This document shows, one piece after another, positions 4,032 to 33,706 of a stretch of DNA of 35,532 nucleotides. Below the pieces are notes generated by a model that worked only from the letters and a program-made list of their open reading frames with translations, did no database searches and was not told the DNA's origin. Origin of the DNA: a virus; the IMG/VR virus record IMGVR_UViG_3300003690_000164, positions 1 through 35,532 of that record, one strand, 5' to 3'. Both the position numbers and the translations under genes were made by a program. Position 1 is the stretch's first letter; each line of letters starts with the position of its first letter.

Positions 4032-7000
4032 ATGCCCATTACTGAAGTTGAACTTCCAGATGGTTCGCGTATTTCTGTTGATCATCCAAGGAATGCGACT
4101 GAATCAGATATTCTTAAATTTGTAAAGTCGCATTATGGGGATGCGTTACCAGAAGAAGTTGTACCTGATATTTCTTCTGCTGTGATTGAAGATACACCAA
4201 GACGAACTACGGGATCTGGTTTCCTCCAGGGATTATCTCGTGGGGTTGATGTTGTTCAGCGTGGGTATGGATCTGCCTTGGAAGGATTTGGGAAATTTAC
4301 AGGTTTGGAAGGGCTGGAAACGACAGGAGCAGAGATTGCTGAAGAACAAGAAAGACAGCTTGCCGAGAAAGCTCCATTCGCAACACGCAGGCAAGACGTA
4401 GAAGACATTCGTTCCGGCGCAAGATTTTTCACTGAAACATTAGGCGAGCAAGTTCCCAATCTAGCGACCACATTAGCTGGTGCTGGGGCTGGGGCGGCAA
4501 TAGGTTCAGCATTTCCTGTTATTGGGACAGCTATAGGAGGTATAGCTGGAGGTCTTGCCGTCAATATTCCTTTTTTCTATGGCTTGAATCGTGAAGCGCA
4601 GAAAGATGCAGTAGAAAAGGGTATTAAAACGGAAGTCAGCGAAGGGGCTGCATTTCTTGCTTCACTGCCGCAGGCTGCACTTGATTTAATTGCTGACAGA
4701 TTTCTTTTAGGGGTAGCTGGTAAAAGCGCATTGAGTGCTGAATACATTATCCGTACCGGCAATATTTTTACCCGAGGAGTTAAAGGTGCTGCCGCCGGTA
4801 CTGCTTTGGAGGTTCCAACAGAGGTTGGTCAGCAAATCATTGAAAGATTTCAGGCTAATGAAGATATCACAAGCGAAGAAGCATTAAATGAATATATAGA
4901 TGTTGCGGTCGCTGCTGGGATTCTTGGCGGAACTATAAGAGGTACTGCATCTATTGTTAAAGGAGATGTTCGCAAGCAGGATTTAATTGTTAATGATTGG
5001 GAGGCAAAAGAATTTCAGGAACAAGAGGGGCCAGATTGGGCTGACAGGCCAAGGGATGCTACAGATAAGGTTGTGACCGATCAAAAGGTAGAAGATGAAG
5101 CTGAGAAGACTGTTCCAGAAGTTGATGAAGCTGTTCCAGAAGTTGCAAAAAAAGATAGTGTATTTACAAGAATTAGAAAAGCTATTGAAGAAGGCAGGGT
5201 TAAAATACATGAATCAGAATGGACTAATGCGCCTAAATTGCCTGCCAATTTAGCAATAGATCCAACCTATAAAAATTATAATGTTAAGTTTGCTAACGAT
5301 GTAGATAAAGCATTATTTATCGTTAGCGATCCATCGATCACAGAAGAACAACGTAAAGAATATACTGCTTTTCTTAAAACCGTTTTTCCCAAAAGATCCG
5401 GTCAGGATTTTATAAGAATGGGGTTTGAATATAGAAAAACCCTTGATGGCTTATTGAGTGATGGCATAGTGGATTCTAATGGAGCTTTAGCACCTGATTC
5501 TTTTACTAAACGTGGTCATGCGGTGCTTGATCCAGATTTACCGGAGACTGTTGTTGAAACGATAACAACTCCGAATGAAGATTTAAGGGCAACTATTCTT
5601 GAAATTGCCCAAGATAAATACAGAGAAGATGTAGGCTCTGTTCAGGCTGCAAACAATGATCAGGGGGTAATTCCTCCAATGTTGACAAGAAAAGAAGCCG
5701 GACTTCCGTCAGGTAACTTTTTTAGCTTTGAGAATATCTACAATAAATTAGATAAGTTTATTTATCATATCCAGGATAGATTGGTTGGATTACTAAGAAT
5801 AGAAGAAGCTATCAATGAAAATAGAAAAAATACTATTTCTGAACTTAATGCGGATAGAAAAACAAAAGGTTTAGATCCTTTATCACCAGCAGAAATAAGA
5901 TCTTTGGATCTTGCTCCATTAACCGCAAAAGAATCTGCTTATAAAGGTGAAGAAAGAATGCCCGGAATCATCGGGTCTATGATTCGAGCTTTTGAAAAAA
6001 ATGAACTTACACCTCTATCCCTGAAAGTTAACAGGATCAAGAAGAAATTTTCTGATATTACGATGCCTGTCATAGAAGAATTTCTTGTCCTTCGCCACGC
6101 TATTGAAAGAAACAAGAAAGTCAGGCTTATTAGGCCAACTAATGAAGCGGGGGCTGGGGAAATACAATATGAAAATGGCGATAAACGACGATTGACTGAT
6201 AATTATGTAAAAGAAAGAATGGCATTGCTATACGATGTGAAATGGGATGAGAAAAATAATGTCTGGACTGGAGGGAACGAGAAAGCGAAATATTTACAGG
6301 ACATAGCCAAGGATGTTGATGCCATTGTTAAAAAATCAATGGATGTACGAGTGGAAAATGGTTTGTTAACCGATACAGAAGCAAAAACCATAAGCAACAC
6401 ATTCAAATATTATATTCCCTTAAAAGGTCATAAGACTTTTGAGGATGATTATTCTGGTGTTTTTAGAAGTTCTTCCGGTGAAGGTCAGGCATCCGGTTTT
6501 ACAGTTGTTGGAGAAGAAGGTAAAAGGATCAAAACAGGAAGAACCACTGAAGCTGATACCCCTCTGGGTACTATTATAGGAGATAGAGCTAATGCGATTC
6601 AGAGAGGAGTTAAAAATAAATCGTTTTCCGAGCGACTGTATAATTTAGCAAAGGAAAATCCCAATAATAATGCTTGGAAAATCTTCACTAATAAAGATGC
6701 TAAATACGAGAAGATGTTTTCGTCAATTTATACTTATGTCGGAAATGATCCACGATTTCAGGGAATGGAAATATCTAAAGATGAATATAAAGCTGTAGAA
6801 AATCCAGATGAATGGCTTCAGAAAATAAATACTAAACGACGCCAGATTAGAAAAGGAGAGGCAGAAAGACTGGAGTTAATCGGAGCAAAACTTGATGGCG
6901 AGCAAGTATATATAGAAATAGCAGATCGGAGGCTCAGAGCGACTTTATTAAATCTTGATGTAGATGAGATGGGCACTGTTGTACGAACTTTAGGCAGAGT

Positions 7001-8831
7001 CAACCGCTTTCTATCAATGGTAAATACAAGTCTTAATCCAGGATTTCTGGTTGGTAACTTTGCAAAAGATATCCAAACAGCCGCATGGAATGTTCTTGGC
7101 GAGCAAACAATGGTTGGCGGAAAGGCTGAAAAGAAAAAGCTCGTAAGAAAAATTCTTTTTAGTACACCTAAAGCGATTCTAACATTCTATAGAGGAATAA
7201 GAGGGGCTACGCGGTTTAACAGGCATACTAATAAATGGGAATCAAGACTTACAGAGAAACAACAGAAAGATTACAATGAATATATTAACTCTGGCACTAA
7301 AGCCGATTGGTTCCATTCGAGACCTCCAGAAGAACGATTGACAGATTTTAATACTTTAAGGTCAATGTCTGATGGAACTTTCAAGGGAACTACCAGGCAA
7401 AGAAGAGAAGCATTGTTGAATTTCATAGAAGATCTAAATGCTGCTGTGGAAAATGGTGTTCGATTTTCTGCTTTTATTCATGGGAGAGATGCGTTCATTA
7501 AAGGCGATAGTAAGCAATTAACTCAAGAAACGGGTAAAGATTTAACTGTTCCGCAAATTCAAGCGATAGAAAGTGAAGCTATTGCTCAAGCGTCAACTTT
7601 GTCAAAAAACTTAACAATCAACTTTAATCGTAAGGGCCAACAAGGCGCATTACTTAATAGTTTGTATCTTTTCTTTAATGCAAGTGTTCAGGGATCAGCT
7701 AATTTTGCCAGAGGATTTATTCCAGGGTTAGGTCCTGGTATATCTAAAGTAAAGTATGCGGCAGCATCAAGTATGATTGCATTGGCTTATTTGCTGTCTA
7801 AGTGGAATGAAGCGTCAAGCGATGAAGATGAGAACGGTAAAACATTTTATTCAAATATTCCCGATTACGAGAAAGAACGTAATTTTATTATGATGAAGAC
7901 GGTTTTAGATCCTAATGCTGATGGCAGTGAATATTGGAAATTTCCTTTGCCTTACGGTTACAATATATTTCATGTGACTGGAACGGTTATCGAGGAAATG
8001 GAATCAGGTAATCGAGACACTGGGGAAGCGACATCTTTGCTTGCGTCAACATTGCTTGGGTCATTTTCGCCAATTAGCATAGGAGGTTCTGCTGCCGGTC
8101 TTGCGACAGCAGCCGTCCCATCTGCCGCCCAACCTGTCGCGCAATTAGTGGCTAACCGTAATTTCTGGGGAACACCTATTTACCCTGAAAATTTCCCGGC
8201 AGGTGTTCAGTATCCAGCCAGCCAACTTGCTTTTAGAACCACGGGCGAAGGGTATAAAGTTATCACCGAATTTCTAAATGTTTTGGGAGGAGGCAATGAA
8301 AGTGAGCCTGGGTCTTTATTGGGTATCAGTACAGATATATCACCGGATGCTTTAGAGCATTTAGCTGAAGCTGTCCTTGGCGGGGCAGGGGCTACTGGCA
8401 CTAGAGGTTTAGGGGCATTTAATAATTGGACAAACAGAGAGGACATCAAGGTTAAGGACATACCTTTTAGAAGAAGGCTTGAAGGAGAAGTTGATAACTT
8501 TAAGAGCCAACAGAATTATTATGATCGCAAAGAAGATATTATAAGAAAGGTCAATCAATACGATGTTTTAATATCACAAGGTAAGCGCGCCGAAGCTCGA
8601 AAATACAGAGAAAAAAATATTTTATATTTTCGCATGGAGAATATATTAAAATTTTCCGAAAAAAGACTTAGCGAGGAAAATAAGAGAATCAAAAACTTAA
8701 GAAATAAAAGTATATTAAATCCGGCTAATGCTATTGCTTATCAGGATATGTCTCTCAATATAGAAGATAGAAAAGATGATATATACAATCGGTTTAATCT
8801 TCTTTTCGATGAAAAAGAAAAAAAGAGGTAG
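4032..8831 (+). CDS. Giant internal/ejection-type virion protein (LPD38-like)
   Basis: 1599 aa. The N-terminus (PITEVELPDGSRISVDHP, then ESDILKFVKSHYGD) is a short domain often found at the start of very large phage internal proteins. Residues ~145-185 form a Gly/Ala-rich hydrophobic stretch that could insert in a membrane. The region around 985-1280 (NRFLSMVNTSLNPGFLVGNF, then F-S-A-F-I-H-G-R-D, then LSKNLTINFNRKGQQG and YLFFNASVQGSANFARG) matches my memory of large polyvalent protein-associated domain 38 in phage ejection-type proteins. The C-terminus is a Lys/Glu-rich coiled coil. AAAGGA lies upstream of the ATG. A role in genome delivery is inferred from size and family. The gene is notably AT-rich compared with what follows. 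Confidence 0.75.
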   Translation: MPITEVELPDGSRISVDHPRNATESDILKFVKSHYGDALPEEVVPDISSAVIEDTPRRTTGSGFLQGLSRGVDVVQRGYGSALEGFGKFTGLEGLETTGAEIAEEQERQLAEKAPFATRRQDVEDIRSGARFFTETLGEQVPNLATTLAGAGAGAAIGSAFPVIGTAIGGIAGGLAVNIPFFYGLNREAQKDAVEKGIKTEVSEGAAFLASLPQAALDLIADRFLLGVAGKSALSAEYIIRTGNIFTRGVKGAAAGTALEVPTEVGQQIIERFQANEDITSEEALNEYIDVAVAAGILGGTIRGTASIVKGDVRKQDLIVNDWEAKEFQEQEGPDWADRPRDATDKVVTDQKVEDEAEKTVPEVDEAVPEVAKKDSVFTRIRKAIEEGRVKIHESEWTNAPKLPANLAIDPTYKNYNVKFANDVDKALFIVSDPSITEEQRKEYTAFLKTVFPKRSGQDFIRMGFEYRKTLDGLLSDGIVDSNGALAPDSFTKRGHAVLDPDLPETVVETITTPNEDLRATILEIAQDKYREDVGSVQAANNDQGVIPPMLTRKEAGLPSGNFFSFENIYNKLDKFIYHIQDRLVGLLRIEEAINENRKNTISELNADRKTKGLDPLSPAEIRSLDLAPLTAKESAYKGEERMPGIIGSMIRAFEKNELTPLSLKVNRIKKKFSDITMPVIEEFLVLRHAIERNKKVRLIRPTNEAGAGEIQYENGDKRRLTDNYVKERMALLYDVKWDEKNNVWTGGNEKAKYLQDIAKDVDAIVKKSMDVRVENGLLTDTEAKTISNTFKYYIPLKGHKTFEDDYSGVFRSSSGEGQASGFTVVGEEGKRIKTGRTTEADTPLGTIIGDRANAIQRGVKNKSFSERLYNLAKENPNNNAWKIFTNKDAKYEKMFSSIYTYVGNDPRFQGMEISKDEYKAVENPDEWLQKINTKRRQIRKGEAERLELIGAKLDGEQVYIEIADRRLRATLLNLDVDEMGTVVRTLGRVNRFLSMVNTSLNPGFLVGNFAKDIQTAAWNVLGEQTMVGGKAEKKKLVRKILFSTPKAILTFYRGIRGATRFNRHTNKWESRLTEKQQKDYNEYINSGTKADWFHSRPPEERLTDFNTLRSMSDGTFKGTTRQRREALLNFIEDLNAAVENGVRFSAFIHGRDAFIKGDSKQLTQETGKDLTVPQIQAIESEAIAQASTLSKNLTINFNRKGQQGALLNSLYLFFNASVQGSANFARGFIPGLGPGISKVKYAAASSMIALAYLLSKWNEASSDEDENGKTFYSNIPDYEKERNFIMMKTVLDPNADGSEYWKFPLPYGYNIFHVTGTVIEEMESGNRDTGEATSLLASTLLGSFSPISIGGSAAGLATAAVPSAAQPVAQLVANRNFWGTPIYPENFPAGVQYPASQLAFRTTGEGYKVITEFLNVLGGGNESEPGSLLGISTDISPDALEHLAEAVLGGAGATGTRGLGAFNNWTNREDIKVKDIPFRRRLEGEVDNFKSQQNYYDRKEDIIRKVNQYDVLISQGKRAEARKYREKNILYFRMENILKFSEKRLSEENKRIKNLRNKSILNPANAIAYQDMSLNIEDRKDDIYNRFNLLFDEKEKKR

Positions 8832-20060: not shown

Positions 20061-20320
20061 AGATATTTCTCCTTCGTTGCTTTAATGATTATTTCGGCTA
20101 ATTCTTTGACCGCTAACTTATCAAACAGAGCGAATGGGATTTCTACTATCCTTTCTTCTTTTGAGGTGACAGAAATCACCACGTTCTCATGCACCAAAGT
20201 CATGCGAATGCCAAGCGTCTTGAATCGCTCGTCGGCCCATAGACCGAGCATCTTTCGCTCAATGCTGTCATCAGCATGAAATTCGAGGGTTATGCTTTTG
20301 TCAAAATCAAATGCTGGCAT
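20057..20320 (-). CDS. Small phage protein, function unknown
   Basis: 87 aa from the ATG at 20320 (GGAAAGC ahead), overlapping the end of the nuclease C-terminal gene by 14 nt. It begins PAFDFDKSITLEFHADDSIE and contains TLVHENVVISVTSKEERIVE, then a helical end (ALFDKLAVKELAEIIIKATK). The mix of beta strands and a final helix suggests a small globular domain. It lies between the nuclease and annealing-protein genes, with a GTGA overlap to the latter, so it is likely part of the recombination operon. No family recognised. Confidence 0.55.
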   Translation of the reverse strand: MPAFDFDKSITLEFHADDSIERKMLGLWADERFKTLGIRMTLVHENVVISVTSKEERIVEIPFALFDKLAVKELAEIIIKATKEKYL

Positions 20321-20891
20321 TTTTGCTTTCCAGATATTCGTGATTCTGATCGCAGAACTGCGCCACCTTGCACCAGTCTTCACAGCGGGTGCGTTTGCCA
20401 GGTCTATGCTGGATCACATGGTCGCCGTTCAATTGATTGTCAGAGGCCCAGGTGATCGCCTCGTCCATGCTGTCGCACACCTTGCTGGCTCGCTTGGCCG
20501 TAGCAGACTTGAGCACCGCGTATTTATCCGGCTGGGACCACATTTCTTCTGGAGTACAGTCCGGCAGACGCGAGCCGACCAGGGCCGAATAGGCGGCATC
20601 CTGGTGCAACGCGAGGCGCTCCTCTACATAGGCTTCGGTTTCCTCCCATGACCACAGCGGCACCGGCAGCTGCAGCACAGGGGCAGCAGGGTAATCATTG
20701 CGCTTCTTCGCATCACTGGCCCGCCAGTCTCTGAATATGACGAGGATGTACAGCGCGGACACTTCAATGCCCTTGGCTTTTGTCAGCAAATACCGATAAG
20801 AATTCGTTTGACAAATCCACTCAGGCTTGAGGCCGCCAGCATTTAGCATGTAAGTCCAAACGCCGGTTGTTTTGTAGTCGATAGCGATCAT
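20307..20891 (-). CDS. RecB/Cas4-like PD-(D/E)XK nuclease, C-terminal part of a split gene
   Basis: 194 aa. It starts with the catalytic D-Y-K motif (IAIDYKTTGVW), then the QTNSYRYLL helix (motif QxxxY), then ILVIFRDW, YPAAPVLQLPVPLWSWEE, a Cys-rich C-terminal region (CTPEEMW, then RCEDWCKVAQFC). These are typical of phage RecB/Cas4-like exonucleases that prepare single strands for annealing. The preceding motifs of the same domain (GxxxH and GAID) are in the overlapping frame at 20888-21217. The ATG overlaps that stop as ATGA, so two coupled polypeptides are also possible. Confidence 0.7.
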   Translation of the reverse strand: MIAIDYKTTGVWTYMLNAGGLKPEWICQTNSYRYLLTKAKGIEVSALYILVIFRDWRASDAKKRNDYPAAPVLQLPVPLWSWEETEAYVEERLALHQDAAYSALVGSRLPDCTPEEMWSQPDKYAVLKSATAKRASKVCDSMDEAITWASDNQLNGDHVIQHRPGKRTRCEDWCKVAQFCDQNHEYLESKNASI

Positions 20892-21543: not shown

Positions 21544-21945
21544 GTGCCAGAGTCTGCATGTAAACCCCCCAGGCGATTGTCTTTTGTGATCCAGGGAGAA
21601 CCCGCCAGCAAGGCGAATTCACGTCAGCTTGTCACGATCAAGGGACGCCCGGCGTTTATCAAGTCAGCCAAAGCAAGGCGCTATGTGGCTGATTTTCATG
21701 CACAATGCCCTAAACCCAGGCAGCTTTTTGAGGGTGATTTATGTATCACAATCGACATCTGGTATGGTTCCAGGCGCCCCGATTTGGACGGCAGTTTGCT
21801 TCTCGATGCATGCCAAGGCATCATATATAAAAATGACCGGCAATGCCGTGAAATACATTTATACTGGCACTTGGATCGTGAAAATCCTCGAGCGGAAATC
21901 ACGATAACGGAAATGAGAAAACCGACAACGAGGAGAGACCCATGA
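21544..21945 (+). CDS. rusA: RusA-like Holliday junction resolvase
   Basis: 133 aa from a GTG at 21544; a TTG at 21577 is an alternative because neither has a strong ribosome site. The fold markers are FVIQGEPASKANSRQLV, PAFIKSAKARRYVADF, then RRPDLDGSLLLDACQGIIYK and NDRQ. Asp80, Asp82 and Asp98 correspond to the acidic metal-binding residues of the RusA dimer. The enzyme cuts four-way junctions or branched phage DNA. It is divergent from the early operon and coupled by ATGA to the primase-helicase gene, so both are probably transcribed from the gap at 21474-21543. Confidence 0.85.
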   Translation: MPESACKPPRRLSFVIQGEPASKANSRQLVTIKGRPAFIKSAKARRYVADFHAQCPKPRQLFEGDLCITIDIWYGSRRPDLDGSLLLDACQGIIYKNDRQCREIHLYWHLDRENPRAEITITEMRKPTTRRDP

Positions 21946-23708
21946 GCAGCAGCGCAGTTGAAATGGCCGTACAAGGTGTCACACAAAACCAACGAATTCT
22001 CTGCCCTGCTTGCTCTGGCACCAGGCAAAAACACAAAACCGAAAAGACATTATCAATCACGTTCGATGGTCCCGTTAAAATTTACCATTGTTTCCACTGC
22101 GATATTTCCGGCAAAATCTCACAAGAAAAAAACTACGACACTTTCGACAACTTCCTGCGTTCTTCCCCCCTACATCCCAACGTCATTGAATTACCTGCGG
22201 CGACCCATGACAGGCAGCTGCATGAATTCCTGGGTGCTCGTGGCATCAGCCGGGAAACAGCCAGTCAATACGGGGTGGTATCGGATGTCAGGTGGTTCAA
22301 CAAAAGCGTGGGCGAAAAATTAGCGATCGGCTTTGTGTATGGCGATCGAAAAGAGCCATCCGCGATCAAGTGGCGATCGCTCCAGGGCAAGTCGTTCATC
22401 CAAACGGGTGCGGCTCAGACCTTCTACGGTCTGGAGCAGCTGCCTGAAGAACTGGGTGAGCTGCCGTTGGTTATTTGCGAAGGCGAGCTAGACGTTTGGA
22501 GCTGTCAGGAAGCCGGCATACCGTCAATCGGCGCCCCCAACGGGGCCCCGGCTAGCCTCAAGCAGAACGACAACGGCACCAAGTACAATTACGTCTGGGA
22601 GTCGCGCGCGCTGATCGAGTCGTCCCGCAAGGTCATTTTGTTCACCGACCGGGACCAACCGGGAGAGAATCTGAAAACCATCCTGGCCAGAAAAATAGGT
22701 CGTGGTAAGTGCTGGGAGGTGACCTACCCGAACGAAGAGAAAGACGCCAACGAAGTGTTGTGCAGCGGTCCCGATGGGGCAAATGCCCTGAAGGAGATGA
22801 TCGAAACAGCCACACCGATGCCCCTGGCCGGCGTATATGCGGCCAGTGACTACGAAGAGGAATTGATGACCCTGTATGAAAAAGGGTACGGTCGCGGCCT
22901 TAGCACGGGTTTCAAGAGCCTGGACGAGATCCTGACCATTGCACCTGGGCTGCATGTGGTGACCGGATCCCCATCGATGGGTAAGTCGGAATTTGTTGAT
23001 GCGCTGGCCATCAATCTCAGCCTGGAAAACAATCTCAGTTGGGCTGTGTGTTCAATGGAGAACCCCGTTTCAACGCACCTTGCCAAGCTGTCAGAAAAAA
23101 TAGTCGGTAAGAGATTTTACGAGGGCCCCTCTGAACGCATGTCCAGAACAGAGCTCGATGAGGCTAAAGCCTTTATTGAAAAACATTTTGTATTCCTTGA
23201 GCAGAAAGACGGCAATCTCCAGACGATCGACAGCATCATCGATTCCACCAAGCAAGCTATCATGCGGTTTGGCTCGACCAGCTACGGCCTAATAATCGAT
23301 CCGTATAATTTTGTGGAGCAGGGTAGGAGCAGGGGTAGCGATCAGAATCAATCAATGAGCATCTCAGAAATGCTCAGTAAGCTCATCGCCTTCGGCCAGA
23401 GTCACGATCTCATAATTTTCTTCGTCGCTCACCCCGTGAAGCAATATCCAAACCAGGACGGCAAGTACCCGGTGCCTGATGGGCATTCGATTTCGGGCTC
23501 GGCCGCATGGCTAAGTAAAAGTCAATGCGGAATCACCGTCCACAGATCGGGGAACCCTGATGACAATCAGCCGGAAATTCATGTTTGGAAAATGCGTTTT
23601 AAGTGGCACGGCAAAATGGGCTGCGTGAAACTAAACTACGACGTGAACACGGGACGGTTCAGCGACCTGCCAAGAGATGAGAATTTTGATTGGTCCGTGA
23701 AGGACTAA
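21942..23708 (+). CDS. Primase-helicase (T7 gp4-like)
   Basis: 588 aa. A zinc-binding site (Cys21, Cys24, Cys50, Cys53) is followed by a TOPRIM primase core with Glu180 (VICEGELD) and Asp236/Asp238 (LFTDRDQPG). A RecA-fold helicase starts with Walker A GSPSMGKS (342-349), then C-S-M-E-N-P, LIIDPYNF as Walker B and VAHP further on. The order and length fit phage bifunctional primase-helicases that load at the fork and make primers. Start and RusA stop overlap (ATGA). Its stop overlaps, by 4 bp and tail to tail, the stop of the minus-strand gene that follows, leaving no room for a terminator. Confidence 0.9.
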   Translation: MSSSAVEMAVQGVTQNQRILCPACSGTRQKHKTEKTLSITFDGPVKIYHCFHCDISGKISQEKNYDTFDNFLRSSPLHPNVIELPAATHDRQLHEFLGARGISRETASQYGVVSDVRWFNKSVGEKLAIGFVYGDRKEPSAIKWRSLQGKSFIQTGAAQTFYGLEQLPEELGELPLVICEGELDVWSCQEAGIPSIGAPNGAPASLKQNDNGTKYNYVWESRALIESSRKVILFTDRDQPGENLKTILARKIGRGKCWEVTYPNEEKDANEVLCSGPDGANALKEMIETATPMPLAGVYAASDYEEELMTLYEKGYGRGLSTGFKSLDEILTIAPGLHVVTGSPSMGKSEFVDALAINLSLENNLSWAVCSMENPVSTHLAKLSEKIVGKRFYEGPSERMSRTELDEAKAFIEKHFVFLEQKDGNLQTIDSIIDSTKQAIMRFGSTSYGLIIDPYNFVEQGRSRGSDQNQSMSISEMLSKLIAFGQSHDLIIFFVAHPVKQYPNQDGKYPVPDGHSISGSAAWLSKSQCGITVHRSGNPDDNQPEIHVWKMRFKWHGKMGCVKLNYDVNTGRFSDLPRDENFDWSVKD

Positions 23709-25821: not shown

Positions 25822-26685
25822 TTAGTGTCTTTGATCCAATGAGTCCAGTTGTTTGGCCCAGCGTTGCTTGGGCACGATCGGAGAATGATCGGATCGAGCT
25901 CTTGATGGACGGCTCCAGCTGCCGCCGCGACTGGGCTTGCCATCGCGTCGCCAGCGGGCATAGCGCAACGACCGGCCTGATTCCTGTTGTGCCAGGGTGT
26001 AGGTGATGATCTTGGAATAGCCACGCCTGGCAGCCTCTTCAGCTGCGGCACGATAGCCCAGGCTGGCGGCCTTCCAGGTGAGTTTGGGGTTCAGTGAATG
26101 ATCAATGCACAGCCGGTTGACTTCGCACACAGCGCGGTGGTCGATCTTTCGAGCCACGGGCCGGCCTACCCAGATGATGGCTATCAGTTCTGGTCCATTG
26201 AAAACAGCATGGCCCCACAGCCAACCCGGAGGAGCCTGGTTGTGGCGGTGATGATCGGTGATGAATTGCTTGGCCACTTTTTGGCGGACTTCACCGGAGG
26301 CCCAGGCATGATTGGTTGAATCACCTCCGAGCAGCTCAATGCTCAGTCCGTAATCGATCTTGAACGGGTGCTCGTGAATAGACTCGGTGGATGATTCAAA
26401 ATAGAATTGCCGGCCGGCGCCTGATTCCTGGGCAAGCAGTTGGCCGCACTTGGTGTTATTGAGCAGGAAATCCCAGCCATCATCTTCACTGATTGCTGTG
26501 ATCAGGTCCTGCAATGCCTCACAACAAGTGCCCCAGGTAAAGTTGGTGTCCCTGACGGTCTCAGAGAGCTCGGGCTCGATGTCATGGTCAATGAGGTACA
26601 GCGGCAGATTCTTTTCACCGCAATACGGACATGGGGCATCAAGAGGACTGTGCAACCAATCCAAATCGTTTAGTTCAGCGCGCAC
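25822..26685 (-). CDS. XF1762/Mom-like GNAT with N-terminal zinc-ribbon
   Basis: 287 aa from a GTG at 26685, 11 nt inside the upstream gene. Residues ~18-60 hold CPYCGEKNLPLYLIDHD and a TCCEAL pair, likely a metal-binding module. The second half (HRHNQAPPGWLWG, GRPVARKIDHRAVCEVNRLC, AASLGYRAAAEEAARRGYSK, ITYTLAQQESGRSLRYARW, GGSWSRPSRAR) is the XF1762-type GNAT-like domain, related in layout to phage Mu Mom, which modifies adenine to resist restriction. DNA modification is a reasonable hypothesis, but XF1762 proteins have no proven reaction that I know of. Confidence 0.65.
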   Translation of the reverse strand: MRAELNDLDWLHSPLDAPCPYCGEKNLPLYLIDHDIEPELSETVRDTNFTWGTCCEALQDLITAISEDDGWDFLLNNTKCGQLLAQESGAGRQFYFESSTESIHEHPFKIDYGLSIELLGGDSTNHAWASGEVRQKVAKQFITDHHRHNQAPPGWLWGHAVFNGPELIAIIWVGRPVARKIDHRAVCEVNRLCIDHSLNPKLTWKAASLGYRAAAEEAARRGYSKIITYTLAQQESGRSLRYARWRRDGKPSRGGSWSRPSRARSDHSPIVPKQRWAKQLDSLDQRH

Positions 26686-26878
26686 TGTATTCTGCTTTGC
26701 GGCTTAATCGTCCCGCTTTGTGGGCCGCGTTATATTCTGCACACCACGCTCTAGCTTCCTCTTCAGTACTAAAGCGCGCTCTAGTCCGAACCGATTTCCA
26801 AGGCTGTGCTCCTGGCTCCAGGCCATTGGGCCATTCAGGGTTTTCGATCCACCACGTTCTCACTTTGCATTCAAACAT
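26675..26878 (-). CDS. Small phage protein downstream of hammerhead ribozyme 1
   Basis: 67 aa with AAGGAC ahead of the ATG. Product: FECKVRTWWIENPEWPNGLE, then RTRARFSTEEEARAWCAEYN, a small alpha/beta protein of a kind common in phages, function unknown. Its 5' leader begins 26 nt upstream at the predicted cleavage site of the ribozyme at 26899-26961, so its mRNA would carry a defined 5' end. It overlaps the GNAT gene. Confidence 0.6.
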   Translation of the reverse strand: MFECKVRTWWIENPEWPNGLEPGAQPWKSVRTRARFSTEEEARAWCAEYNAAHKAGRLSRKAEYSAR

Positions 26879-26898
26879 CTGTTTGTCCTTTAGTGGTT

Positions 26899-26961
26899 TT
26901 CCAAGATCCCCAACCTCTGTGGGGATTTCGACTGATCACCAATCAGTCTCGTCGGTTGGAA
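26899..26961 (-). ncRNA. Hammerhead ribozyme 1 (type I fold, variant core)
   Basis: Minus strand, 63 nt. Stem I: UUCCAA (26961-26956) with UUGGAA (26904-26899). Core: CCGACGA (26955-26949) in place of CUGANGA, i.e. U4 changed to C. Stem II: 7 bp GACUGAU/AUCAGUC, loop UGGUG. Then GAAA (26929-26926). Stem III: 6 bp UCCCCA/UGGGGA, loop CAGAGGU. Then U-C, with cleavage expected between 26905 and 26904. Stems II and III differ in sequence from ribozyme 2 but keep pairing, which is covariation evidence. The U4 change may lower activity. Confidence 0.75.
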
Positions 26962-26962
26962 T

Positions 26963-27499
26963 TTATTTGCGGCAGGGCATCACGATCCCGACTCGGCTGG
27001 GTTCTTGTTCAGAAACAACGCGAACCGGGCTAGAGCCGTCAAATATGTCCAGCCGAACAATGGGCTCCTTGCCGCGACCACCGCCCGCTGCTAGTGCTTG
27101 CGCCAGTTCCAGAACGTACTGTGCGTTGAGGCGGATACTGACGACGGGCTCTTTAGAATCGTCGATTAAGACCCGCTCGTAGTCGGGGAACTGGCCGTTG
27201 TCGATGCGCTCGTAATGAGCCAGCGGCAAACCGCTACCCGAGTCAATCAGCGTTGCATCGCCGTTGCAGACGATTTCAGCGGATTCCAGCTTGCGCTTGC
27301 GGGCATCCTTGATCACATCAAGCGGCACGGGACCGCTGGTGTCATCGGCGTGTACTTCCACCGGTATCTTGACCAGCTTATGGCCGTCAGTCGCAACCAA
27401 GCACTTGTTTTCCACATCTAAATGTGGGTCTCTAAGGTAAGGACGCACATCCTTTACGCTCGCTATTTTCTCCAGTTTGAGTTTTGGATCAATTTTCAT
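26963..27499 (-). CDS. DnaN-like sliding-clamp domain protein
   Basis: 178 aa from the ATG at 27499, with GAGGAAA upstream. The pattern CLVATDGHKLVKIPVEV, SAEIVCNGDATLIDSG and the ending VSEQEPSRVGIVMPCRK follows beta-clamp domains (in full DnaN: ...LVATDGHRLA... and a terminal VVMPMR). It is half the usual length of DnaN (~366 aa), as in phage clamp-like proteins, so it may form a larger ring, or act as a decoy or partner of the host clamp. It is flanked by two hammerhead ribozymes, one in the leader of its mRNA and one just past its stop. Confidence 0.75.
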   Translation of the reverse strand: MKIDPKLKLEKIASVKDVRPYLRDPHLDVENKCLVATDGHKLVKIPVEVHADDTSGPVPLDVIKDARKRKLESAEIVCNGDATLIDSGSGLPLAHYERIDNGQFPDYERVLIDDSKEPVVSIRLNAQYVLELAQALAAGGGRGKEPIVRLDIFDGSSPVRVVSEQEPSRVGIVMPCRK

Positions 27500-27520
27500 C
27501 GTCTGTTTCCTCTGTTGGTT

Positions 27521-27585
27521 TTCCAAGACCGTTGACCTCTGGCAACGGTTTCGGCCGGGTACCAACCGGCGCTCATCAGTTGGAA
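27521..27585 (-). ncRNA. Hammerhead ribozyme 2 (type I fold, canonical core)
   Basis: Minus strand, 65 nt. Stem I: UUCCAA (27585-27580) with UUGGAA (27526-27521). Core CUGAUGA (27579-27573) is fully canonical, and GAAA is at 27552-27549. Stem II: 6 bp with one bulged C (G-[C]-GCCGG / CCGGC-C), loop with UUGGUAC. Stem III: CCGUUG/CAACGG, loop CCAGAGGU. Then U-C, with cleavage expected between 27527 and 27526, leaving a 27-nt leader before the clamp gene start. The stop codon of the upstream gene (27576-27578) supplies U4-G5-A6 of the core. Confidence 0.9.
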
Positions 27586-27959
27586 TTGATCGCTTTCGCT
27601 ATGGGTGTGTTCTGGTAGATCTCGACAAAGCTCTCAAGTGAGCCATCAAAGAACTCTTCCCAGGTGGTCTCATCGCCCCAACCTTCACGTTTGAAAGCCT
27701 TTATACCAACCTGTTGATGGATGTCTGGGCCAGTCCATGTAACGGAGATGTCATAGCGATATTCGGTGTCGCCATGTACCTCATGATTGGCGGTGATTTC
27801 AGCGCGATCGTTTTTGCGGATGAAGCCCTCTGGGTTACGCACCCCATCAAGGTACTGTGCTGCCCCTTCAGGGTAGCCATCATGATGAATGTAAAGGGTG
27901 ACCGCTGGCTTGAATCGAAGGTCAGCACGTATGAATCGATAGGTTGCTCGGGTGCTCAT
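27576..27959 (-). CDS. Small conserved phage protein (STRATYRF type)
   Basis: 127 aa with GAGAGGAG ahead of the ATG. It starts STRATYRFIRADLRFKPAV and has TLYIHHDGYPEGAAQYLDG, the same opening and H-x-D/W-G-Y-P-E-G-A-A block as a small family found in phages and some bacteria, without a known function. It ends with SN-stop, and that stop is part of the hammerhead ribozyme core. It is the first gene of its operon. Its leader resembles the two ribozyme-derived leaders (GAAAAC then a purine-rich ribosome site at the same distance), although no ribozyme precedes it. Confidence 0.7.
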   Translation of the reverse strand: MSTRATYRFIRADLRFKPAVTLYIHHDGYPEGAAQYLDGVRNPEGFIRKNDRAEITANHEVHGDTEYRYDISVTWTGPDIHQQVGIKAFKREGWGDETTWEEFFDGSLESFVEIYQNTPIAKAINSN

Positions 27960-28104
27960 TGCGTTCTCCTCTCGGTGTTTTCTTGGTCCTCAATATGAAG
28001 ATTAGCATGATACATCGTGACTATGCAACACCCTATAAACACTATGGTTATATGGCTGAAATATGAGGCTATCAGGATGCTGTGAGGCTATGATCCATTG
28101 CTGT

Positions 28105-28653
28105 ATGACAAACACCAAAGAATTGACACCTAAGATGTACAGGTTCTGCAGAGAGCTCGCCTCCGGCAAAACCCAAGCAGAAGCCTATCGCATCGCCTAT
28201 AACGTCGGTGATGAGGCTAAACTCAAGACGCAGAGAGAGGCGGCCAGCCGTTTGATGGCGCGTAGCAACATCCGAGCAACGGTGGAGGAGCTCATCGCTA
28301 AGAGAGAGGCTGGAATACAGGCCAGGAGCCTCTCGCAAAGGGATCTCGTGCTGACGAGGCTCCGAGAAGCCATAGATAATGAAGATTTCGGCTCTAACCG
28401 ACTGAAAGCATTGGATTTAATGGCAACTGTCGCTGGAATGAAGCGTACCGACGTGACCATCACCCAGACCGACGACAGGGACGCTGAAGCGATCAAAGAA
28501 GAGCTCGCAGCTAAGCTGCTGGCACTGGGGATCGGCCTAGATACGGGCTCTGAGGACGACAGTGACGCTGTTGAAGCCGATCCCGAGACTGATGAAGCCG
28601 AGCTCGACCAGGATCCAGTACCGGACCCGGTAGCGGATCCATCACTACACTGA
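28105..28653 (+). CDS. Terminase small subunit-like DNA-binding protein
   Basis: 182 aa from the ATG at 28105; an ATG at 28063 would add an odd Cys-rich leader (SGCCEAMIHCC), so I prefer the later start, though neither has a ribosome site. The N-terminus (ELTPKMYRFCRELASGKTQA, EAYRIAYNV) is the HTH of phage TerS-like proteins (FCxEYxxG...AAxRAGY). LTRLREAIDNEDFGSNRLKA follows as an oligomerising helix region, and the tail is very acidic (DSEDDSDAVEADPETDEAE). It should select the DNA end for TerL, whose gene is 3.5 kb to the right. Confidence 0.7.
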   Translation: MTNTKELTPKMYRFCRELASGKTQAEAYRIAYNVGDEAKLKTQREAASRLMARSNIRATVEELIAKREAGIQARSLSQRDLVLTRLREAIDNEDFGSNRLKALDLMATVAGMKRTDVTITQTDDRDAEAIKEELAAKLLALGIGLDTGSEDDSDAVEADPETDEAELDQDPVPDPVADPSLH

Positions 28654-32200: not shown

Positions 32201-33706
32201 ATGCTCGAAGGAATGAACCCTGAAACCTTGGACCAGTTGCAGAATTGCCCGGCTGAAGATCAGCGGGAAGTGCTCAAGCTGATCGAGAGCATCGAAGCGG
32301 CCGAGCGCAAAGCGACTGCCAGGAGCAGTTTCATGGGCTTTGTCAAACACGCCTGGCCGGCCTTCATTGAAGGGCGGCATCACCCCATCATGGCAAAAGC
32401 CTTTGAGCGGGTGGCCGCAGGCGAGCTCAAGCGCCTGATCATCAACATGCCCCCCAGGCACACCAAGTCTGAATTTGCTTCTTACCTGTTGCCGGCGTGG
32501 TTTTTGGGCCAATACCCCGATAAAAAAATCATCCAGACCGCACACACCGCCGAATTGGCGGTGGGGTTCGGGCGCAAAGTGCGTAACCTGGTTGCCAGCG
32601 AGGACTACAAGACCATCTTTCCCCAGGTCGCGTTACGCGCCGATTCCAAGGCTGCCGGCCGCTGGAGCACCAACCAGGGCGGTGAATATTTCGCCATCGG
32701 GGTGGGCGGTGCGGTGACCGGTAAAGGTGCCGACCTGTTGATCATCGATGATCCCCATTCCGAGCAGGAAGGCCAGAGTATCGACCCGGCGGTGTTTGAC
32801 AAGACCTACGACTGGTACACCTCCGGGCCCAGACAGCGGCTACAGCCAGGTGGCGCGATCGTGATCGTGATGACACGCTGGCACAAGCGGGATCTTACGG
32901 GGAAGATCATCAAGGCATCGACCCAGCGCGAAGGCGTGGATGAGTGGGAAGTCATCGAGTTCCCGGCGATCATGCCTTCGGGCAATGCGTTGTGGCCCGA
33001 ATTCTGGAGCCAGAAAGAATTGCTGGCGCTGCAGAACGAGCTGCCGGCTTCCAAGTGGTCGGCCCAGTACCAGCAGGATCCCACCTCCGAAGAAGGCGCA
33101 CTGGTCAAGCGGGAATGGTGGAAACGCTGGGAGCAGGACCGTACCCCGCATTGTGAATTTATTATCCAGTCCTGGGACACCGCGTTTTTGAAAACCCGAA
33201 GGGCTGATTATTCAGCCTGCACCACCTGGGGCGTGTTCTATCATCCCGATGACGAAGGCGCGACCCGGCCGAACATTATCTTGCTGGATGCCCACAAGGA
33301 ACGCCTGGAATTTCCCGAACTGAAGAAGAAGGCGATGGAGTTCTATACCAGCTGGCAACCCGATGCCTGCATTATTGAAGCGAAAGCGGCGGGGGCGCCG
33401 CTGGTTTTTGAGATGCGCGCTATGGGGATTCCGGTGTCCGAATACACACCCTCGAGGGGCAATGACAAAGTCGTCCGGGTCAATGCGGTGGCGGATTTGT
33501 TTGCTTCCGGCGTGGTGTGGTGTCCCGAGACTAGGTTTGCCGAGATGGTGATTGAGGAATTTGCATCTTTTCCGGTCGGGGAGCATGATGATTTGGTGGA
33601 TAGCAGTACGCAGGCGTTGCTGCGGTTTCGCCAGGGCGGTTTTCTGCGGTTAGGCACCGACGAGGAAGATGAACCGATGTATAAACGCACTGCCAATTAT
33701 TATTAG
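32201..33706 (+). CDS. terL: Terminase large subunit
   Basis: 501 aa. ATPase: a variant Walker A PPRHTKS (84-90), Walker B LLIIDDPHSE with Asp183/Asp184, and VMTRWHKRDL as the coupling motif. Nuclease (RNase H-like): Asp326 in QSWDTAF, then DACIIEAKAAG and a late acidic GEHDDLVDSS. These are the standard parts of a phage packaging motor that drives DNA into the prohead and cuts concatemers. A second ATG 12 nt on is possible. The portal follows two small genes later, as is usual. Confidence 0.95.
   Translation: MLEGMNPETLDQLQNCPAEDQREVLKLIESIEAAERKATARSSFMGFVKHAWPAFIEGRHHPIMAKAFERVAAGELKRLIINMPPRHTKSEFASYLLPAWFLGQYPDKKIIQTAHTAELAVGFGRKVRNLVASEDYKTIFPQVALRADSKAAGRWSTNQGGEYFAIGVGGAVTGKGADLLIIDDPHSEQEGQSIDPAVFDKTYDWYTSGPRQRLQPGGAIVIVMTRWHKRDLTGKIIKASTQREGVDEWEVIEFPAIMPSGNALWPEFWSQKELLALQNELPASKWSAQYQQDPTSEEGALVKREWWKRWEQDRTPHCEFIIQSWDTAFLKTRRADYSACTTWGVFYHPDDEGATRPNIILLDAHKERLEFPELKKKAMEFYTSWQPDACIIEAKAAGAPLVFEMRAMGIPVSEYTPSRGNDKVVRVNAVADLFASGVVWCPETRFAEMVIEEFASFPVGEHDDLVDSSTQALLRFRQGGFLRLGTDEEDEPMYKRTANYY

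Follow-up and report, generated by a model that had tools for sequence, protein, structure and literature searches.

RESULTS

A sliding clamp-like gene between two hammerhead motifs

The DNA studied is IMG/VR virus record IMGVR_UViG_3300003690_000164, positions 1-35,532, and the window is this whole 35,532-nt stretch. On its minus strand a 127-aa ORF, a β sliding clamp-like ORF and a 67-aa ORF follow one another (Table 1), and both junctions between them consist almost wholly of a hammerhead motif (HH-A or HH-B) together with the leader that its predicted cut would leave. The TGA stop of the 127-aa ORF (27578-27576) is at the same time U4-G5-A6 of the HH-A core. The next gene on this strand, the Mom-like one, has a GTG start and overlaps the 67-aa ORF. 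A consensus scan found no sigma-70-like promoter in either ribozyme junction (the region as a whole gave 7 vs 4.7 in shuffles).

Table 1. Features of the clamp region, with positions in the window
Feature	Position	Strand	Remark
127-aa ORF, upstream of clamp	27576..27959	(-)	no family match
HH-A, type I hammerhead motif	27521..27585	(-)	core CUGAUGA / GAAA / GUC, consensus
HH-A leader, 27 nt	27500..27526	(-)	left by predicted cut
β sliding clamp-like ORF, 178 aa, similar to part of DnaN	26963..27499	(-)	
HH-B, type I hammerhead motif, U4C core variant	26899..26961	(-)	CCGACGA / GAAA / AUC
HH-B leader, 26 nt	26879..26904	(-)	left by predicted cut
67-aa ORF, downstream of HH-B	26675..26878	(-)	no family match
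Mom-like DNA modification protein ORF	25822..26685	(-)	phrog_1384, E 6.6e-18

Genes for an exonuclease (20307-20891), a primase/helicase (21942-23708) and the small (28063-28653) and large (32201-33706) terminase mark the window as tailed phage DNA. It also holds a DNA ejection-like gene (1073-2050) and, at 4032-8831, a 1599-aa protein similar to C-terminal portions of giant phage proteins (PHROG 14770 and 616). No close relative was found among named phages: in a DNA search with the window, the ribozyme region had no relative there and the remainder gave just weak terminase matches.

The middle ORF had originally been described as DnaN-like, which its sequence bears out. A profile built from four relatives matched PDB β clamps over residues 14-142 (E 2.8e-6), and the ORF matched the processivity factor family phrog_947 (E 1.2e-6); a better PHROG match has a RusA-like label. 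With 178 residues the ORF is about half of a 366-aa clamp. Its AlphaFold model, built from a shallow alignment, reached a pLDDT of 37 and was dropped as too poor a query for a fold search. The sole match to the protein among named phages is in Hafnia phage yong1, at 33%.

One consensus hammerhead and one core variant

HH-A consists of UUCCAA (27585-27580), the core CUGAUGA (27579-27573), stem II (27572-27553), GAAA and a stem III closing on GUC, with the predicted cut between 27527 and 27526, 27 nt ahead of the ATG at 27499. It has the complete type I core (CUGANGA, GAAA, A15.1-U16.1 and an NUH triplet, here CUGAUGA, GAAA and GUC) and three helices of 6, 6 and 7 pairs, stem II being interrupted by one bulge and the chain ending in stem I. 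HH-B is laid out in the same way: UUCCAA (26961-26956), the core CCGACGA (26955-26949), stem II (26948-26930), GAAA and a stem III closing on AUC. It would be cut between 26905 and 26904, which is 26 nt before the ATG at 26878. Its GAAA, its NUH triplet (AUC) and its three helices of 6, 8 and 7 pairs are those of a hammerhead; its core departs from the consensus CUGANGA by the replacement of U4 with C. We therefore call HH-B a core variant, hammerhead-like. Of the 117 viral matches listed from the pattern search described below, four, counting HH-B itself, have C at position 4. According to the sections of PMC3088659 that treat it, the U4C change considerably lowers activity in vitro, yet a viroid hammerhead carrying it was functional in vivo and permitted infectivity. 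Because of this lowered activity the cut at the 3′ side of the clamp message may be slow, and by analogy HH-B is expected to be slower than HH-A, not necessarily dead.

A search of both strands of the 35.5 kb for three-helix type I hammerheads returned HH-A and HH-B and no others, and 30 block-shuffled windows contained none. A covariance model, to whose seed both motifs belong, recovered the same two at 75.1 and 74.5 bits. At the gathering threshold, an Rfam search of the window found nothing. A permissive search yielded sub-threshold matches to RAGATH-1 and HH9; the best match of both motifs was the RAGATH-1 hammerhead (RF03152), at 30.0 and 26.3 bits against a gathering score of 56.3. The snoRNA matches of that search were taken as chance. 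In nearest-neighbour folding, which has no pseudoknot term, the hammerhead fold of HH-B is nearly the minimum (-21.6 vs -23.0 kcal/mol), whereas that of HH-A lies 6.2 kcal/mol above it (-20.1 vs -26.3 kcal/mol), so that minimum free energy folding alone does not support the HH-A fold.

The matched leaders are arms of a predicted pseudoknot

Both leaders start with UUGGAAAACCA, a sequence with exactly two occurrences in the window, neither with a mismatch, and each carries a Shine-Dalgarno-like site (AGAGGA behind HH-A, AAAGGA behind HH-B). The original prediction was thus correct on the bracketing of the clamp ORF, on the cut sites 26 and 27 nt ahead of the starts, and on the shared leader start and ribosome site; its view of the matched leaders as such has to be changed. 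Leader bases 8-11 (ACCA) can pair with UGGU in loop II in both motifs: 27519-27516 with 27564-27561 in HH-A, and 26897-26894 with 26941-26938 in HH-B. Because loop II covaries with these leader bases, the shared UUGGAAAACCA appears to be mainly a stem I arm and a pseudoknot arm, and not a shared translation signal alone.

The covariation comes from an alignment of 33 ribozymes in which all 132 loop II-leader cells are paired. Double changes occur at three of the four pairs (GC to AU 10 times, GC to AU twice and UA to CG twice), and sliding the loop II partner destroys the pairing. Its rows were never chosen or dropped on this pairing. In a wider test of 116 of the 117 viral matches (the one dropped did not have a single loop II hairpin), at least four contiguous Watson-Crick pairs between loop II and leader were present in 75 of 116 ribozymes among the matches listed, as compared with a mean of 28 and a maximum of 42 in 1000 leader swaps. 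The other 41 include families with GGAA-like stem II loops. HH-A and HH-B are assigned to the predicted pseudoknot by pairing and covariation.

The first 12 nt of the HH-A leader can also form a UUGG-AAAA-CCAA hairpin. In 79 representatives, post-cut leader bases 1-4 were predicted to be paired more than with the remainder shuffled (Wilcoxon P = 0.00035), a statistic that reflects predicted pairing and not hairpin covariation, the UUGG arm being fixed by the search pattern; individually, 14% of the 79 leaders fell under the 5% level. A function of such a 5′-terminal hairpin is modestly supported by this modelling. Long near-perfect hairpins stand a few bases past the predicted cut site at L019, L058, L074, L075 and L096.

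Bracketing of the clamp in related viruses

Three close relatives of the clamp were found. In L002 (82% identity) it is likewise flanked by both ribozymes and its neighbours differ from those in the window; the stem II and III sequences are different and still pair, and the predicted cuts lie 26 and 25 nt before the starts. In L003 there is only the downstream ribozyme, 25 nt ahead of the next start, and the clamp is preceded by another gene and a plain Shine-Dalgarno leader, with no upstream ribozyme. Because the L003 clamp does without one, bracketing is not needed for clamp expression. The covariance model finds these sites with E-values of 7.7e-13 (L002, whose ribozymes are not in the seed) and 7e-14 (L003, whose ribozyme is). 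By eye, the gene directly upstream of the L003 clamp resembles the Mom-like gene, so that gene order would differ from the window. The whole record of the third relative, L004, gave no hammerhead match, its contig having just 38 nt ahead of the clamp, and there was no hammerhead at the distant clamp relatives L148-L155.

A widespread hammerhead motif at gene junctions

An exact pattern with a CCAA/UUGG stem I, which left position relative to genes unspecified, found the live core in at least 119 IMG/VR stretches, vs 16 in a complete scan with a dead core (GAAA changed to GTTT). Stem III had at least three pairs in 91 of the 122 unique live-core matches listed and in none of the 7 unique dead-core matches. 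The 122 matches, 117 viral and 5 from GTDB, are those that the following tallies describe. Among the 122 matches listed, 98 are followed 15-45 nt after the cut by a start codon that has a Shine-Dalgarno-like site (7.7% at random positions, 4000 draws), an upstream ORF stops at the ribozyme in 97 of 122 among the matches listed (11% at random), and both hold for 81 of 122 of them (1% at random). The distance from cut to start is nearly fixed, being 22-38 nt in most matches listed. The pattern admitted both C and T at position 4; 113 of the 117 viral matches listed have T, the consensus base. The five GTDB matches of the stricter pattern had no match to the covariance model and were taken as chance.

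The 33-sequence alignment (A4) was drawn from the 117 viral matches in three steps. Dropping long stems, other leader starts, contig ends and duplicate stems left 57; removal of five with a short stem II left 52; and removal of another 19, mainly with a longer stem II and including both from L002, left 33. Of the 719 cells in its stems 93.7% are paired, both partners vary in 15 of 22 pairs, and none of the shifted registers comes close to the true one. The covariance model built from these 33 had one or more hits in 48 of the 50 records scanned, up to seven in a single record, and none at 29 control loci. With both partners changing in a compensatory way in stems II and III and in the loop II-leader pairs, the structures of HH-A and HH-B are, on comparative sequence evidence, conserved RNA, and their placement at gene junctions is strongly non-random.

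A looser helix search gave 129 unique ribozymes at 94 loci, with no locus carrying motifs on both strands. In 90 of the 129 the upstream stop falls between -12 and +1 relative to the core, and in 28, HH-A among them, it is the core's own UGA. There were 35 consecutive ribozyme pairs, 13 of which bracket a single ORF by a crude test. The ribozymes precede a diverse set of mostly small ORFs (111, falling into 89 clusters); among 89 downstream ORFs scanned, four were ATPase-like and two anti-restriction-like. L038, L162 (G040:18500-24221) and L161 (G021:36500-42800) contain arrays of 6-7 hammerheads, roughly one for every gene or every second gene. L038 (2774-7858) has seven in about 5 kb, with differing stem I sequences, and G040 has seven in about 4.5 kb. 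Several upstream ORFs in L038 end in the core's own UGA. In DNA searches against named phages, the L038 and L068 arrays had no match and L162 had one 2% match only.

The motif also occurs in cultured phages. The locus L007 belongs to a phage that is nearly identical to Pseudomonas phage PhiCHU, and the ribozyme region of L007 matches 90 named records, 89 of them over at least 80% of the query. All six sequences checked (four of the 90 records, L163-L166, together with L007 and L061) contain the motif. In LUZ24 (L163, 2411-2509) the ribozyme comes directly after annotated gp5, which ends at 2409; the predicted first post-cut base is 2481, and annotated gp6 starts at 2509. The hammerhead, 28 nt before gp6, is absent from the features listed for that stretch. 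It resembles HH-A and HH-B in its order of stop, ribozyme, 28 nt and start and in the pairing of loop II (UGAUU) with the leader (AAUCA), and differs in its long stem III loop and its downstream gene. PaP3, a phage tested by Perreault et al., is presumably a relative of LUZ24.

DISCUSSION

Our results suggest that HH-A and HH-B are probably cis-acting type I hammerheads that cut a minus-strand phage operon at its gene junctions. The arrangement is known but little studied, and operon cutting has already been proposed for this class of phage hammerhead. In the portions of their 2011 paper concerned with phages, Perreault et al. proposed the cutting of phage transcripts by hammerheads flanking single genes, and reported cleavage of gene-flanking phage arrays in the course of in vitro transcription and, for one array, in E. 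coli (PMC3088659). As described there, those type I hammerheads share with ours the core CUGANGA/GAAA/NUH, three helices, an open stem I and a pseudoknot between stems I and II, a feature known in hammerheads, and the arrays share clustered copies flanking single genes. Relative to the same portions, what differs here is that the downstream gene's leader supplies the pseudoknot partner, that HH-B carries U4C, and that the clamp content and the sequences are new. The HHphage variant of haloviruses HF1/HF2 lies 13 nt upstream of a helicase gene start, and a transcript there has been mapped to begin no more than 3 nt from the cut site; it differs in being a structural variant from viruses of extreme halophilic archaea, and the first part of section 11 of that paper describes no bracketing pair (PMC3088659). 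The relevant passage of PMC10085705 still calls the biological reason for ribozyme-gene associations unknown. A literature search, with most subscription papers outside its scope, recognised no published account of this clamp arrangement or of the LUZ24 hammerhead.

Operon cutting is the best reading of the motifs; cleavage, the RNA ends and the benefit are inferred. Loop II, by its covariation, would pair with leader bases 8-11 just past the cut and lock stems I and II in the active fold. Each ribozyme would then cut its own RNA 26-27 nt ahead of the next start, giving a 5′-OH message with its ribosome site intact, and the message upstream would finish with the hairpins of stems II and III followed by a 2′,3′-cyclic phosphate. 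For the clamp this predicts a message of about 622 nt (27526-26905), HH-B with its U4C presumably cutting more slowly than HH-A. The likely use would be to make each gene's message independent of the adjacent ones, with defined, structured ends. For the operon splitting by a ribozyme pair originally proposed for this clamp, the conserved, covarying structures at the junctions and the repeated bracketing in L002 speak in favour. Against operon cutting count the U4C core of HH-B, the HH-A fold at 6.2 kcal/mol above its predicted minimum, the sub-threshold Rfam scores, the 41 of 116 related ribozymes short of four contiguous loop II-leader pairs, the missing upstream ribozyme in L003 and the negative result in L004 with its 38 nt ahead of the clamp.

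Cleavage might instead serve mainly the downstream 5′ end, a 5′-OH followed by the terminal hairpin UUGG-AAAA-CCAA slowing 5′-dependent decay, with separation of the clamp message a by-product. We regard this as possible, if rather less than evenly probable. The nearly fixed distance from cut to start (22-38 nt in most matches listed), the excess pairing of leader bases 1-4 (P = 0.00035) and the long post-cut hairpins at L019, L058, L075 and L096 are what it would predict; but only 14% of the 79 leaders fall individually under the 5% level, the HH-B hairpin is weaker, and the loop II pseudoknot already accounts for the same bases. Ribozyme-made ends can also serve as decay entry points. Cleavage could act as a down-regulator, genes behind ribozymes being expressed less or only late through loss of upstream context or decay, and the U4C of HH-B could tune the amount of cutting. 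A Shine-Dalgarno-like leader kept after the cut in most matches listed would be odd for a destructive element, and we think this role unlikely.

The motifs could alternatively be mobile or recombination-prone DNA modules at junctions between shuffling genes, self-cleavage being incidental or lost. U4C in HH-B would fit such a loss, the genes flanking the same clamp differ among the window, L002 and L003, and the 111 downstream ORFs fall into 89 clusters. Compensatory double changes in stems II and III and the pseudoknot nevertheless suggest that selection acts on the RNA, T is kept at position 4 in 113 of the 117 viral matches listed, and none of 94 loci has motifs on both strands, which makes DNA modules a distinctly improbable account. 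As for a chance resemblance to hammerheads, neither motif reaches an Rfam gathering score, but the absence of hits in 30 shuffles, the covariation and the conservation of the site in L002 and L003 (model E 7.7e-13 and 7e-14) already refute it at the level of conserved structure, and we give it almost no credence.

Operon cutting could, in addition, be gated by ribosomes. Translating ribosomes on either side of a junction would block ribozyme folding, so that the junction would be cut only while untranslated. In this way translation load would turn a polycistron into single-gene messages, a reading that we think a long shot. It builds on the upstream stop codon, which the core often includes or adjoins, and on the pseudoknot arm, which lies at the edge of the downstream ribosome site. 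Genome compactness alone could give the same stop positions, and core-UGA stops make up about the share expected from one reading frame in three. If gating were true, whole phage gene blocks such as those of L038 and G040 may run on it.

The order of stop, ribozyme, 22-38 nt and start is a common and widespread design of phage gene junctions, not an oddity of one clamp gene. Cultured LUZ24-like phages make possible a direct test of the purpose of phage hammerheads, a question dating from 2011. Should cutting be confirmed, phages of this kind would obtain monocistronic messages from a single transcript with no protein nuclease involved, and the resulting 5′-OH and 2′,3′-cyclic phosphate ends would be missed or misread by standard RNA mapping based on 5′-triphosphates.
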